Below are positions 19,754-25,645 of a stretch of 33,419 nucleotides of DNA, piece by piece. Where the stretch lies: NCBI GenBank assembly GCA_903840385.1, contig CAIMFT010000131.1, positions 1 to 33,419 on the forward strand, read 5' to 3'. The position numbers and the translations under genes were made by a program. Source of the DNA: an uncultured Holophagaceae bacterium. Lineage in GTDB: Bacteria; Acidobacteriota; Holophagae; Holophagales; Holophagaceae. The stretch's first letter is position 1. Each line of letters begins with the position of its first letter. The notes beneath the pieces were generated by a model that worked only from the letters and a program-made list of their open reading frames with translations, did no database searches and was not told the origin of the DNA.

Positions 19754-20455
19754 CTAGAAGGCCTTGCTCACCGTGAAGGTCACGCGGTTCCCGCCGATGT
19801 TGCGGCCCAGGGCGTTGGTGTAGACCGCGTCCTTGGTGTCGGCCTTGGTGCCGGCCAGGGCGAAGGTGTAGCCCTTCAGCTCCTTGGCGATACCCAGCTT
19901 GGTGTCCGTGTAGTCGAGGGGGCTGTTGCCGGTTCCTGTGTAGGTGGTCTTGCCGGCGTGGGCCAGCACGGTCCAGCCACTCTCCCCCAAGGGATAGGCC
20001 ACGCTTAGATCGAGGTAGCTGGAGCCATCCGCCTTGGCGACGCCGAAGCTCCCGGCGCTGAGCACCTTGGAGTACTTGAGGCTCGCCCAGGCGTAGCTGA
20101 GGCCCAGGTAGCCCTCGGTGGTGCTGGGGCTGGTCATGGCGACGTGGGAGTAGTCGCCAGGGTAGAGGTAGCGGTAGGCGCCGATGTCCAAGGTCCAGTC
20201 CTTGGCGAAGCCCCACTTGTAGCCACCGAAGACATCCACCTCAACGCCAGCGGACAGCGGCCCGACACCCGCGTCGGTGAGCCAGGAGATGTTGCTGGCG
20301 GCGAGGCTGAGATACCAACCATCGGCGTGAGCCAGATCGATCTCAGCCTGCACGGTGGGCTTGCCATCGGTCTGCGTGAGGCCGCGGAAGATGTACTGCG
20401 AGCCCAGCGTGGCCGAGCCCGTCACCGCAAAGCCCAGGAGGGCGGGTGGGGCGGG
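19754..20455. repeat. Long direct repeat, copy 2 of the porin barrel region
   Basis: Partner of the 22817-23518 repeat, same length and orientation, about 2.4 kb apart. Differences are scattered single bases, so it is a real paralogue rather than a duplicated assembly segment. Confidence 0.85.
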
Positions 20456-20518
20456 CGGCTCTGCCAGCAGGGGCAAGCCCAGGGGGGCCAGGAGGGTCAG
20501 GAGCAAGGGAGTGCGCAT
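19754..20518 (-). CDS. TorF-family putative porin, distal copy
   Basis: A 254-residue outer-membrane protein of the TorF/Gcw_chp family. It has a signal peptide (about 1-19), a short Pro/Ala linker, and alternating beta strands ending in the C-terminal aromatic residue (VSKAF) expected for outer-membrane insertion. The TGSATLGSQYIFRGLTQTDG start of the barrel is typical of the family. Such proteins often sit beside ammonium transporter genes and are thought to be small-solute channels; the substrate is unproven. About 96% of the mature residues are identical to the proximal copy at 22817-23614 (nine differences), while the signal peptides differ. It lies 176 bp downstream of glnK. Confidence 0.88.
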   Translation of the reverse strand: MRTPLLLTLLAPLGLPLLAEPPAPPALLGFAVTGSATLGSQYIFRGLTQTDGKPTVQAEIDLAHADGWYLSLAASNISWLTDAGVGPLSAGVEVDVFGGYKWGFAKDWTLDIGAYRYLYPGDYSHVAMTSPSTTEGYLGLSYAWASLKYSKVLSAGSFGVAKADGSSYLDLSVAYPLGESGWTVLAHAGKTTYTGTGNSPLDYTDTKLGIAKELKGYTFALAGTKADTKDAVYTNALGRNIGGNRVTFTVSKAF

Positions 20519-20694: not shown

Positions 20695-21048
20695 TCAGGG
20701 CCCGATGGCGTCTCCTCCCTGCTGTCCCGTGCGGACCCGGAAGCAGTCCTCGAGGTTCAGGACGAACACCTTGCCATCCCCCAGCTGACTGGGTTCAGAC
20801 TTGGCGGCCGTCATGATGGCCTCCACGGCAGGTCGGACAAACTCTTCGTTCACGGCGATCTCCAGCTTCACCTTGGGCAGCAGGCGGATCTGGCCGATCT
20901 TGTTGCCCCGGAACTGCTCGGCGTAACCCCTCTGGGTGCCGCAGCCCCGGACATCCGACACGGTCATCAGATGGATGTCCTGGGCGACCAGGGCGGACTG
21001 GACGGCTTCAAACCGCTCAGGCCGGATGATGGCGATGATCATTTTCAT
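20695..21048 (-). CDS. glnK: PII nitrogen-regulatory protein (GlnK-type) lacking the modification tyrosine
   Basis: A 117-residue PII signal protein, 48 bp downstream of amtB as usual for glnK-amtB pairs. It would bind ATP/ADP and 2-oxoglutarate and plug the AmtB trimer with its T-loop. The core motifs are present: GCGTQRGYAE, LLPKVKLEI and the C-terminal GDGKVFV and RVRTG. In the T-loop the usual ELYRGAEY reads EQFRGNKI, so the tyrosines at positions 46 and 51, including the uridylylation site Tyr51, are replaced by Phe46 and Ile51. Ser49 is Asn49. Control by uridylylation or the known serine phosphorylation is therefore unlikely. A GAGGAG site precedes the ATG. Confidence 0.92.
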   Translation of the reverse strand: MKMIIAIIRPERFEAVQSALVAQDIHLMTVSDVRGCGTQRGYAEQFRGNKIGQIRLLPKVKLEIAVNEEFVRPAVEAIMTAAKSEPSQLGDGKVFVLNLEDCFRVRTGQQGGDAIGP

Positions 21049-21096: not shown

Positions 21097-22770
21097 TCAC
21101 TTCTTGGCGGTGGGAGGAACGGTGATGGGAGCGCCAGCCGGGGCCGCCAGGGCGGAGATGACGTACTCGGGGTAGGCCGAGATGCCGTGCTCGTGGATGT
21201 CCATGCCGTCCAGCTCACCCACCTTGGAGAGGCGGAGCAGGCCAAAGGCATCGATGGCATACATCACCGCCAGGGAGACCCCGAGGGTGGCGACGGTGAC
21301 GATGGCGCTGCCGATCAGCTGGGCTTTGAGCACCTGGCTGCCGCCGCCGTAGAAGAGGCCCGTCAGCTTGCTGGTGAGGTCGGGGCTGATGGGGTCGCTC
21401 CCGATGGCAGAGAACTGACCGCTGGCGAAGAGCCCCAGGGAGATGGTGCCCCAGATGCCGTTGACCATGTGCACCGGCACAGCGCCGATGGGATCGTCAA
21501 TGCGGAGGTACTCGAGCATGTCCACGGCCAGGATCACCAGGACACCGGCGATGGCACCGATCATCACCGAACCGAAGGGAGACACCCAGTAGCAGGGGGC
21601 GGTGATGGCCACCAGGCCGGCCAGGAAGCCGTTGGTGATGGAGCCCGGATCCCACTTGCCGGTGCGGAAGTAGATGTAGAACACGGCGGTGAGGGCGGCG
21701 GCGCAGGCAGCCAGGGTGGTGTTGGCGGAGACGCGGCCGATGCCTTCGAAGTCCATGGCGGAGAGGGTACTGCCGGGGTTGAAGCCATACCAGCCGAACC
21801 AGAGGAGCAGGCCGCCGCACACGGCGATGGTGAGGTCGTGAGGCGTCATGGGGCCGCCGCCGTCCCGCTTGAACTTGCGGCCGATGCGGGGGCCGAGGAC
21901 GATGGCGCCCGCCAGGGCCACGGCGCCGCCGATGGTGTGGACCACGGTGGAGCCGGCGAAGTCATGGAAGTTCATGCCCAGGCCGGGGAGGAACTTGCCG
22001 GCGCTGCCCATGGTGGCCAGGAAGCCATCGGGGCCCCAGGCCCAGTGGCCGATGATGGGGTAGATGAAGCCGGAGACGCAGAAGCTGTAGAGGATGTCAC
22101 CGATGAAGTCGGTGCGGCCGATCATGGCGCCGGAGGTGATGGTGGAGCAGGTGTCAGCGAAGGCGAACTGGAAGATCCAGTGAGCCAGCAGGGCCACGCC
22201 GGTGGTCCCATAGGTGGCGGGCACGCCCTTGAGGAAGAACCAGTGGTAGCCGATGAAGCCGTTGCCCTCGCTGAACATGAAGGCGTAGCCCCAGGCCCAG
22301 AAGAGGATGCCGCAGAGGGCCGTGTCAAACACGCACTCCACCAGGACGTTGACCGTTTCCCGGGAGCGGCAGAAGCCAGCTTCCAGCATCACGAAGCCCA
22401 CCTGCATGGCGAAGACCAGAAAGGCTGCGATCAGGGTCCACATGGTGTTCAGGGGATTGATGATGTCCTTGGCGAGCACCACAGGAGCGGCGGGGGCCGG
22501 GGCAGCGGCAGGTGCTGCAGCTGCGGGGGCGACGTCGGCAGTGGCGACCACGGCCGGGGTGGGCGCCGGGGTGTCTGCGTGGGCCGGGGTGCCGTTGAGC
22601 AGCATGGGGATGAGGATGACCATGGCCAGGATGGCCACGATGCCCAGGCTCTTGCCGGCGGCCATGAGCAGGCCGTAGCGGCGCCACTCGGGGTCCTTCA
22701 TGCGCTCGCGGAGCCGGGAGAGCTTCTGCGGGTAGGTGAGCTTCTCGGTGGTGCAGGAAGTGCTTGCCAT
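21097..22770 (-). CDS. amtB: Ammonium transporter AmtB with N-terminal extension
   Basis: A 557-residue Amt/Rh channel. The conserved core runs from about residue 105 (INPLNTMWTLIAAFLVF) with eleven hydrophobic segments. The pore histidines are recognisable in DFAGSTVVHTIGG and VPVHMVNGIWG, and the preceding aspartate is kept. The N-terminus is unusual: about 35 polar, basic residues, one hydrophobic segment (GIVAILAMVILIPMLL), a possible signal-peptidase site after AHA, then an Ala/Pro linker of about 35 residues. I chose the ATG at 22770 because GGAG lies five bases upstream; the ATG at 22782 has no ribosome site. It lies between the proximal porin and glnK in the nitrogen operon. Confidence 0.93.
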   Translation of the reverse strand: MASTSCTTEKLTYPQKLSRLRERMKDPEWRRYGLLMAAGKSLGIVAILAMVILIPMLLNGTPAHADTPAPTPAVVATADVAPAAAAPAAAPAPAAPVVLAKDIINPLNTMWTLIAAFLVFAMQVGFVMLEAGFCRSRETVNVLVECVFDTALCGILFWAWGYAFMFSEGNGFIGYHWFFLKGVPATYGTTGVALLAHWIFQFAFADTCSTITSGAMIGRTDFIGDILYSFCVSGFIYPIIGHWAWGPDGFLATMGSAGKFLPGLGMNFHDFAGSTVVHTIGGAVALAGAIVLGPRIGRKFKRDGGGPMTPHDLTIAVCGGLLLWFGWYGFNPGSTLSAMDFEGIGRVSANTTLAACAAALTAVFYIYFRTGKWDPGSITNGFLAGLVAITAPCYWVSPFGSVMIGAIAGVLVILAVDMLEYLRIDDPIGAVPVHMVNGIWGTISLGLFASGQFSAIGSDPISPDLTSKLTGLFYGGGSQVLKAQLIGSAIVTVATLGVSLAVMYAIDAFGLLRLSKVGELDGMDIHEHGISAYPEYVISALAAPAGAPITVPPTAKK

Positions 22771-22816
22771 TGCTGACTCCATGGAGTGGGTAATGGGAAC
22801 GAGGGGCGGTTTGGAA

Positions 22817-23662: not shown

Positions 23663-23821
23663 TTAGCGCTGGGACAGGAGGGCCTGCCCCTGAATCTGGG
23701 AAGGGCCCTGCAGATCGGTCACGGGATTCCCGCAGCTGGGCTCGGCAGCAAAGACGAGCGAGGACAGGGCCACAAGGGCCACTGCCACAGCGAGGGAACG
23801 GGTCAGGGTCCGCCGGTTCAT
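23663..23821 (-). CDS. Small secreted peptide (52 residues), first gene of the nitrogen operon
   Basis: A short gene with a strong ribosome site (AAGGAG, seven bases before the ATG). The product starts MNRRTLTRSLAVAVALVALS and continues to LVFA, a textbook signal peptide with a cleavage site after VFA. About 27 mature residues would remain (beginning AEPSCGNPVTDLQG), with a single cysteine and several glutamines. No family is recognised. It is the first gene after the predicted sigma54 promoter and stands 48 bp before the proximal porin gene, which suggests a role in ammonium uptake or in the envelope. It could also be a leader peptide whose translation matters more than its product. Confidence 0.65.
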   Translation of the reverse strand: MNRRTLTRSLAVAVALVALSSLVFAAEPSCGNPVTDLQGPSQIQGQALLSQR

Positions 23822-23905: not shown

Positions 23906-23926
23906 AGGGGCCGGCCATCGGCCCCT
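23906..23926 (-). other. Hairpin in the 5' leader of the nitrogen operon
   Basis: An 8-bp GC-rich stem (AGGGGCCG with its complement) around a 5-base loop. It begins about four bases after the predicted sigma54 transcription start, so the transcript would start with a stable stem. It may protect the 5' end. No U-run follows. Confidence 0.5.
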
Positions 23927-23940
23927 CCCGCTCTTTCCAG

Positions 23941-23956
23941 AGCAGGGGCCGTGCCA
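23941..23956 (-). promoter_or_regulatory. Predicted sigma54 (-24/-12) promoter of the peptide-porin-amtB-glnK-porin operon
   Basis: On the minus strand the sequence TGGCACGGCCCCTGCT matches the sigma54 consensus TGGCACG-N4-TTGC(A/T) at all positions except one T (C here), with the GG and GC doublets at the exact required spacing. The start of transcription would be near 23930, about 110 bp before the small peptide gene. The next gene upstream encodes a sigma54 activator, and paired palindromes lie about 123 and 153 bp upstream, as expected for enhancer sites. Confidence 0.78.
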
Positions 23957-24046: not shown

Positions 24047-24090
24047 AAACATTTTTGTAGATAAATCCATGTCTTACGACAATTTTGTAA
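24047..24090. promoter_or_regulatory. Paired palindromic sites upstream of the sigma54 promoter (predicted enhancer)
   Basis: Two sites resemble TTACAATTTTGTAA: 24077-24090 (12 of 14 match, within the last codons of the activator gene) and 24047-24060 (10 of 14). Their centres are 30 bp apart, the same spacing as the perfect pair in front of the activator gene. They lie about 123 and 153 bp upstream of the predicted start, a normal enhancer distance. Confidence 0.6.
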
Positions 24091-25645
24091 TATTTTGTGC
24101 TTCCGAGGACGTCTGGAACCGCTCCGGCTCCAAGCCGTGCTTCTTCACTTTGTAGTTGAGGATGCGCTCCGTGGTCTGGAGCAGGCGGGCGGCCCGGGCC
24201 CGGTTGCCTCGGGCCGACTTGAGGGCATCCTGCAGGATGTCCCGCTCGAAGGCTGAGACCGCATCCCCCAGGGCCTGGGACGGCAGGGTCCCGGAGACCT
24301 CGGCGGTCTGTAGGCTGGGCGGCAGGTGGTGGCCATGGACCACGCCCCCCTCGCAGACCAGGACGGCCCGCTCCATGCAGTTCTCCAGCTCCCGAACGTT
24401 GCCGGGCCAGTGGTAGGCCACCAGCATGTCGATGGCGGAGGTGGACAGGCGGCGCACGTCCTTGCGGTGGCGGGCGGCGTATTTCTCCACGAAGTGATCA
24501 GCCAGTAGAAGGATGTCGGTGTTCCGCTCCCGCAGGGGGGGCAGGAAGACTTCAAACACATTGAGGCGGTAGTAGAGGTCCTCCCGGAAGAGGCCATTGA
24601 GGGTGGCCGCCTCCAGGTCCCGGTTGGTGGCGGTCACGAGGCGCACGTCCACCTTCACAGGCGTGACCCCGCCGAGCCGCTCAAACTCCCGCTCCTGCAG
24701 CACCCGCAGGAGCTTCACCTGGGTGGCCGGACTGAGCTCCCCCACCTCATCCAGGAAGAGGGTCCCGCCCTGGGCCAACTCAAACCGCCCCAGCTTCTGC
24801 TTGCGGGCATCGGTAAAGGCGCCGGGCTCATAGCCGAACAGCTCTGACTCGATGAGGTTCTCGGGCAGGGCCCCGCAGCTCACCTTCACGAAGGGCTTGT
24901 TGGCCCGGGGGGAGCTGTAGTGGATGGCATGGGCCACCAGCTCCTTGCCGGTGCCGGACTCCCCCCGGATGATCACGGTGGTGCTGGCGGGCGCCGCCTG
25001 GGCCACCAGGTCGTAGACCCGCTGCATGGCGTGGCTGGTGCCGATGAGGTTCCGGAGCTCGTAGCGCTCCCGCAGCTCCTCACGCAGCTGTCGGTTCTCC
25101 TCCAGCAGGCGCTGGCGATCGGCGGCCACCAGGCGGGCCACCTTCATGGCCATCCCCACCATGGACGCCGCAATCTGCAGGAGCTTGGCCTCGCCGTCGT
25201 AGTCCCGGGCGGCGTCGTAGGGCGTGGTCAGGGAGAGGGCCCCCACGGCTTTGCCATCGACAAAGAGGGGCAGGCAGAAGAAGCTCAGCTCGCCCTTCTG
25301 GCGGCGGTGCTCCCGCAGGATCCCCGTGCGGTCCAGATAGAGGGGCTCCTGGCTCACCTTGGGAACGACCACGGCCTTGCCGCTCTTGAGGACCCGGCCT
25401 GTGACCCCCTCCCCAGCCCGGTAGCGGGCCCGCTCGATGGCCTGTCGGCTCAGGCCCCGGGAGGCCTCCAGCCGCAGCTCACCACTCTCCTCTTCCGCCA
25501 GCATGATGACGCCACTGAGGGCACCAAAGGCCTCCGCCAGGATCTCCAGCACCCTGGGCAAAGCCGCCCGGATATCGGAGGTGGACAGGGCCTGGCTCAG
25601 CTCCACCAGGGTGGTGAGGTTGCGTGGATCCTCTGGGTTCGCCAC
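24074..25645 (-). CDS. GAF-AAA+-Fis sigma54-dependent activator (NifA/FhlA-like)
   Basis: A 523-residue enhancer-binding protein. A GAF domain (about 15-170) and a helical linker lead to the AAA+ domain, with Walker A GESGTGKE (228-235) and Walker B GGTLFLDE (293-300). The sigma54-contact loop reads GAFTDA (275-280) instead of GAFTGA. A Fis-type helix-turn-helix (GNRARAARLLQTTERILNYKVKKHG) ends the protein. The start is a GTG at 25645 with GGAG seven bases upstream; the nearby ATG is out of frame. It lies just upstream of the sigma54 promoter of the ammonium operon and is its probable activator. No receiver domain is present, so the signal is likely a ligand or protein contact at the GAF domain. 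Confidence 0.92.
   Translation of the reverse strand: MANPEDPRNLTTLVELSQALSTSDIRAALPRVLEILAEAFGALSGVIMLAEEESGELRLEASRGLSRQAIERARYRAGEGVTGRVLKSGKAVVVPKVSQEPLYLDRTGILREHRRQKGELSFFCLPLFVDGKAVGALSLTTPYDAARDYDGEAKLLQIAASMVGMAMKVARLVAADRQRLLEENRQLREELRERYELRNLIGTSHAMQRVYDLVAQAAPASTTVIIRGESGTGKELVAHAIHYSSPRANKPFVKVSCGALPENLIESELFGYEPGAFTDARKQKLGRFELAQGGTLFLDEVGELSPATQVKLLRVLQEREFERLGGVTPVKVDVRLVTATNRDLEAATLNGLFREDLYYRLNVFEVFLPPLRERNTDILLLADHFVEKYAARHRKDVRRLSTSAIDMLVAYHWPGNVRELENCMERAVLVCEGGVVHGHHLPPSLQTAEVSGTLPSQALGDAVSAFERDILQDALKSARGNRARAARLLQTTERILNYKVKKHGLEPERFQTSSEAQNITKLS

Follow-up and report, generated by a model that had tools for sequence, protein, structure and literature searches.

A short open reading frame heading a Geothrix ammonium operon is very likely the 5' end of an ammonium transporter gene and may act as an exported leader

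The first open reading frame (ORF) of an ammonium operon in the window, the 33,419-nt stretch of DNA from an uncultured Holophagaceae bacterium that was analyzed as a whole (contig CAIMFT010000131.1), is very likely the 5' end of an ammonium transporter gene, amtB(S), comprising the signal peptide and part of the periplasmic linker of the encoded protein. The position of this short frame, referred to here as the leader ORF, its conservation, its homology to AmtB(S), and the selection on its signal part are established by the comparisons described below. Our best reading is that an orphan amtB signal peptide has been retained as a leader that would be translated, exported, and active in cis, replacing the free-standing secreted factor proposed in the first-pass annotation. 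No earlier description of the leader or the locus was found in open-access papers. On the minus strand, the order is activator, leader ORF, torF, amtB(A), glnK(A), and second torF, with the following features.

24,074 to 25,645, minus strand: activator, GAF-sigma54-AAA+-Fis, NifA-like (TIGR01817, 492.6 bits, below the NifA cutoff of 528.85)
24,049 to 24,089, minus strand: repeats TACAAAATTGT (24,089–24,079) and TACAAAAATGT (24,059–24,049), read from the sequence
23,942 to 23,956, minus strand: sigma54-type −24/−12 element TGGCACGGCCCCTGC, GG-N10-GC
23,906 to 23,926, minus strand: 5' UTR hairpin AGGGGCCG-AUGGC-CGGCCCCU, from covariation
23,663 to 23,821, minus strand: leader ORF, 52 codons and stop; codons 1–26, putative signal peptide, constrained; codons 27–52, putative AmtB(S) linker remnant, nearly unconstrained, with a basic last residue
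22,817 to 23,614, minus strand: torF, TorF/Gcw_chp putative porin (PF09694, E 2.9e-40; TIGR02001, E 9.8e-42)
21,097 to 22,782, minus strand: amtB(A), ammonium transporter (PF00909, E 1.1e-109; TIGR00836 over cutoff)
20,695 to 21,048, minus strand: glnK(A), P-II protein (PF00543, E 1e-26)
19,754 to 20,518, minus strand: second torF copy, behind glnK (PF09694, E 9.6e-41)

The leader ORF runs from the ATG at 23,821 to the end of the stop codon at 23,663 and encodes the 52-amino-acid sequence MNRRTLTRSLAVAVALVALSSLVFAAEPSCGNPVTDLQGPSQIQGQALLSQR. Its ribosome site lies six bases ahead of the ATG (AGGAAGGAG-ACACCC-ATG). The signal peptide and its cleavage site were assigned by eye: the n-region contains RR and one further R, the hydrophobic stretch LAVAVALVALSSLVF follows, and cleavage is placed at V-F-A↓A, leaving a mature part of 27 residues with one Cys. 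The coordinates, gene context, ribosome site, mature length, and single Cys given in the first-pass annotation were all correct. A lipoprotein reading was rejected because a lipobox is lacking (LVFAAEPSC). The ORF had no match in Pfam and NCBIfam, and the 11-helix transporter domain of PF00909/TIGR00836 is absent from it.

A search of 60 related genomes for the leader frame gave matches in many genomes of the same genus, Geothrix. Reading the DNA from the activator to torF gave a homologous open frame in 21 Geothrix genomes, the window's genome included, and codons 2–26 are open in all 21 torF-type genomes with a complete region. A similar frame between the activator and TorF is what the first-pass annotation had suggested looking for in relatives; its description of a short gene with a signal peptide at the head of a sigma54-driven ammonium operon is borne out, and the gene is real and conserved. 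The gap from the leader to torF is 49 nt in the window and ranges from 49 to 200 nt across the genomes. In G005, the DNA shows an intact leader; the corresponding place in G012 is covered by an assembly gap (NN) and was not judged. In the group of G008, G018, and G026, the tail and stop of the leader differ. G016, G036, G032, and G034 have lost the proximal ribosome site or ATG and use an in-frame ATG further upstream that has its own putative ribosome site; the predicted product of these leaders, which belong to one branch, is 24–26 codons longer, and the frame is kept. Decay of the leader in G016 and G036 was rejected because the upstream ATG compensates for the loss of the start. The clade with upstream starts comprises the loci L042, L044, L046, L048, L049, and L051, and the extra residues would precede the hydrophobic segment. 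The arrangement is different in G020 and G029, where amtB(A) is directly behind the promoter and torF has moved to the end. The leader of G020 has a decayed start (ATG to CTG) and no ribosome site, and no leader was recognisable at the locus of G029, although both genomes keep the promoter and the UTR hairpin. The two genomes are in one clade, and their leader decay is probably a single event.

The origin of the leader ORF is indicated by the remaining locus type. The frame that follows this activator reads on, without a stop at about 50 codons, into a full AmtB(S) in three genomes (G001, G006, and G013) and three public records (L062, L064, and L065). The transporter has roughly 517 to 538 residues; a glnK of its own lies behind it and, in most cases, a torF as well. 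AmtB(S) is ~42% identical to AmtB(A) of the window, and Geothrix genomes with a complete locus carry either the short type or the AmtB(S) type, never both. The first ~45 codons of the short frames and AmtB(S) are homologous; in many relatives, the signal part of the short frame is 47–68% identical to AmtB(S) over 31–45 residues. AmtB(S) homologues from many phyla, such as those of Myxococcales, Rokubacteria, Limnochordaceae, and others, have a linker of the form [A]DPSGxxTGGIxxVPAxxAGxPT after the signal peptide. The short frames have an N-terminus homologous to this signal peptide and DPSGxxTGGIxxVPA linker, and remnants of the linker are readable in several of them, as DPIGGIQQIPSHAGTP in G007, DPSGGSQQIPS in G025, and DPNGCARGS in G016. 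The motif is not recognisable in the tail of the window's own ORF, so the descent of this ORF rests on its signal part and on its relatives. Since the frame at the same place begins AmtB(S) and pieces of the linker are kept, the short ORF is best explained as the truncated 5' end of amtB(S). Very likely, amtB(S) once lay directly behind the promoter, its body was lost, and a torF–amtB(A)–glnK(A) cassette came to occupy its place. The leader thus resembles AmtB(S)-type transporters (PF00909/TIGR00836; e.g., that of Geothrix sp. SG200, L061) in its first ~45 codons, its locus behind the activator, and its sigma54 promoter, but it ends before the first transmembrane helix and is incapable of transport. 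The leader is a case of a regulatory or leader ORF whose origin can be traced to the front end of a type of gene that its own operon still encodes.

Selection was analyzed with nine separate pairs of torF-type genomes, taking codons 2 to about 26 as the signal part. The pN/pS value of the signal part was 0.41, compared with 1.08 and 1.95 for the same DNA read in the two wrong frames, and the differences at codon positions 1, 2, and 3 were 20, 18, and 42 (chi-square p 0.0013). The tail gave a pN/pS of 0.76 and position counts of 46, 50, and 59 (p 0.42). In seven torF-type genomes (G000, G031, G030, G023, G022, G003, and G017), the codon-position differences were 66, 42, and 167. Immediately ahead of the stop, 11 of 13 separated lineages have R or H, which account for 7% of the tail residues; random-frame ends in segments of the window have R or H in 22% of cases. 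The C-terminal similarity among the leaders exceeded that of random tail windows (p about 5e-5); these C-terminal statistics are inflated by shared descent, as the separated lineages are only partly independent. The last residue, R/H or otherwise P, is clearly conserved and the preceding one (H/Q/P/R/S) weakly; a neutral last codon would be expected to vary more at such divergence. Purifying selection on the signal-peptide codons, with a tail close to unconstrained save for the basic last residue, is supported by these patterns, and the leader ORF is quite probably both translated and under selection.

An independent peptide factor with an important mature part, as the first-pass annotation had envisaged, is not supported by these results: the region after the signal part has no codon periodicity, the single Cys is not universal among the relatives (it is absent in G032, G025, G034, G008, G018, G026, and G036), and the frame shares homology with the signal peptide and linker of AmtB(S) at the same locus in other Geothrix. 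A mature peptide with a functional Cys was therefore rejected as the main function. The suggested role as a partner of AmtB or the porin is possible, but nothing points to it specifically. Short secreted peptides ahead of transporter operons should be regarded with caution, as they may represent truncated transporters instead of new factors.

Here, we propose how the leader could work. Translation would begin first at the leader, and the emerging signal peptide would pull the ribosome, together with its mRNA, to the inner-membrane Sec machinery. Translation or termination of the short exported leader would then set the translation of torF and, via torF, also that of amtB–glnK. The leader tail would serve mainly as a spacer up to the basic last residue and the stop. 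A role in cis is suggested by the constrained signal peptide, the free spacer, and the constrained end, together with the fate of the leader: it is gone or decayed in both genomes in which torF no longer follows (G020 and G029), which probably counts only once as they form one clade. Beyond the last one or two residues, no conserved arrest motif was found in the leaders, and single-sequence folds gave no common structure over the torF ribosome site. The leader-to-torF gap of up to 200 nt argues against tight translational coupling. Action in cis on the operon can be put forward only with some doubt. As a whole, an amtB(S) remnant kept by selection as an exported cis leader is the best explanation of the data, and we hold it tentatively.

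A system with a comparable layout is CutF of the Rhodobacter capsulatus cutFOG operon, a small exported leader whose signal peptide and export serve to control how the following gene is translated (PMC9973294). Both are small exported ORFs (by prediction for the leader), first in an operon whose downstream genes serve nutrient uptake or homeostasis, with an important signal peptide and a C-terminus of interest by the stop. The short ORF ahead of the Geothrix operon has an N-terminal Sec signal peptide, as judged by eye. There are also differences from CutF. The operon is for ammonium and not copper; a Cys-rich or His-rich metal motif is absent, with one Cys in the window's ORF and none in several relatives; and a proline-rich, stalling-like C-terminus is absent, only the last residue being clearly conserved. 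As for a stem-loop over the next ribosome site, the single-sequence folds gave no common structure. The likeness is one of working principle and layout, and the leader is not of the CutF family. The arrest leaders SecM, VemP, and MifM lie upstream of the regulated gene and combine a signal or membrane segment, a variable spacer, and C-terminal constraint. The leader ORF resembles them in layout, but its C-terminal end is conserved only at the last one or two residues, and an arrest peptide is unrecognisable. The best reading by analogy is that the leader ORF belongs to neither the CutF nor the SecM family and is comparable to them in layout.

Two other explanations of the conserved signal part were weighed, and we regard each of them as unlikely. 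The product may be a small exported or single-span membrane protein that acts in trans; AmtB, TorF, and the Sec machinery are examples of what it could act on, and only the hydrophobic segment would be of importance. This is a refinement of the view taken in the first-pass annotation. Small single-span proteins are common in bacteria, selection does act on the hydrophobic N-terminal part, and the 24–26 residues before the segment in one group would be more in keeping with a membrane anchor than with a classical signal peptide. However, the exported part is under hardly any constraint, and the segment goes back to a signal peptide whose cleavage site is plausible. Moreover, six genomes have no separate copy, the segment being part of AmtB(S), and G020 and G029 carry amtB(A)–glnK(A)–torF without the leader. 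Alternatively, the leader may be a relic in the course of decay, an amtB(S) start that was truncated and whose apparent constraint is residual or comes from recombination with intact amtB(S) alleles. The near-neutral tail, the loss of the ribosome site or ATG in several genomes, and the decay in G020 would fit this explanation, and cassette exchange returns intact amtB(S) starts to the locus. The frame nevertheless stays open over codons 2–26 in every complete torF-type genome with an excess of third-position differences and the low pN/pS, upstream in-frame starts replace the lost ones, and the seven-genome group, which is entirely of the torF type, still shows the 66/42/167 pattern.

The closely related genomes G006, which is of the AmtB(S) type, and G018, which is of the short type, bear on the history of the locus. 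The two share 92% DNA identity across the activator, the UTR, and the frame up to about nt 80; the homology breaks at ~80 nt into the frame and resumes past the operon at 93%. On the activator tree, loci of the AmtB(S) type fall into three separate places, and a minimum of four changes among three locus types is needed. The patchy distribution and the break between G006 and G018 indicate that the cassettes behind the leader were exchanged more than once. As the short form is present in both main branches, the truncation of amtB(S) is probably old, and the swap in G006 more likely replaced the short form with AmtB(S) again. The same facts could be read in the reverse order, with the short ORF being older and a few genomes having fused AmtB(S) to it: AmtB(S) is the less common form and is scattered on the tree, and the closest relatives of G006 are all of the short form, its swap probably running from the short ORF to AmtB(S). 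This order is very improbable, because the linker motif in the short frames belongs to AmtB(S) across many phyla, and hence the part after the signal peptide came from AmtB(S). A meaningless chance frame, as abound in G+C-rich DNA, is practically ruled out by the codon-level selection and the conservation in 21 genomes. Returning to a leader derived from amtB(S), a more far-reaching and rather unlikely extension is that the freed signal peptide, as an exported leader, senses the state of export or of the membrane, or ammonium thereby, and controls in cis the operon that replaced its own gene, while also forming the edge of amtB cassette exchange and serving alternately as a free leader and as the signal peptide of a transporter. 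With intact, truncated, and lost states at one locus in related species, the function of an orphan signal peptide is testable via natural variants.

The leader ORF is the first frame downstream of a conserved sigma54 promoter. The element TGGCACGGCCCCTGC is located 135 nt upstream of the leader ATG in the window, and nearly all relatives have a GG-N10-GC element 135–164 nt ahead of the leader start (at −39 in G001). The paired repeats at 24,089–24,049 are probably binding sites of the adjacent activator, as predicted from their sequence; similar pairs, ACAAAAATGT / ACATTTTTGT, lie upstream of the promoter in G005, G012, G016, G020, G036, G006, and L064. The consensus of the pair kept in the relatives is TACAAAAWTGT, which is usable for finding the regulon of the activator. 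The 5' UTR hairpin is at the expected 5' end of the transcript and in all Geothrix locus types examined, except in G001. In 24 sequences, 93.8% of the cells are paired and four of the eight pairs changed on both sides, and the covariation score was reached in none of 500 shuffles. The hairpin is an element distinct from the leader, as genomes without the leader also have it. The search against Rfam gave no family and nothing approaching the cutoff, so a known RNA family was rejected for the UTR. One Geothrix branch has a second structured UTR stretch with a near-invariant ACCGGATTCCCA (L055:920–1057, L041:856–993, and others; alignment A2). A long-range stem, GGATCGG...CCGATCC, encloses the near-invariant ACCGGATTCCCACGG, and the element has a riboswitch-like look with few double changes.

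In amtB–glnK operons, a sigma54 promoter is typically served by an activator of the NtrC/NifA type, and amtB is paired with glnK. The operon in the window shares the sigma54 promoter, the enhancer-type activator next door, and the amtB–glnK pair, but differs from the usual ones in the position of torF, behind the promoter and ahead of amtB, and in having an orphan signal peptide as its first frame. The two torF copies, which are 88.7% identical, flank amtB–glnK; most relatives have one copy. The duplication may be a trace of cassette exchange through recombination between torF copies. In G016 (L042) and G012 (L053), an insert of ~6 kb separates the activator from the promoter and leader of the ammonium operon, and the one in G012 opens with a permease-like frame.
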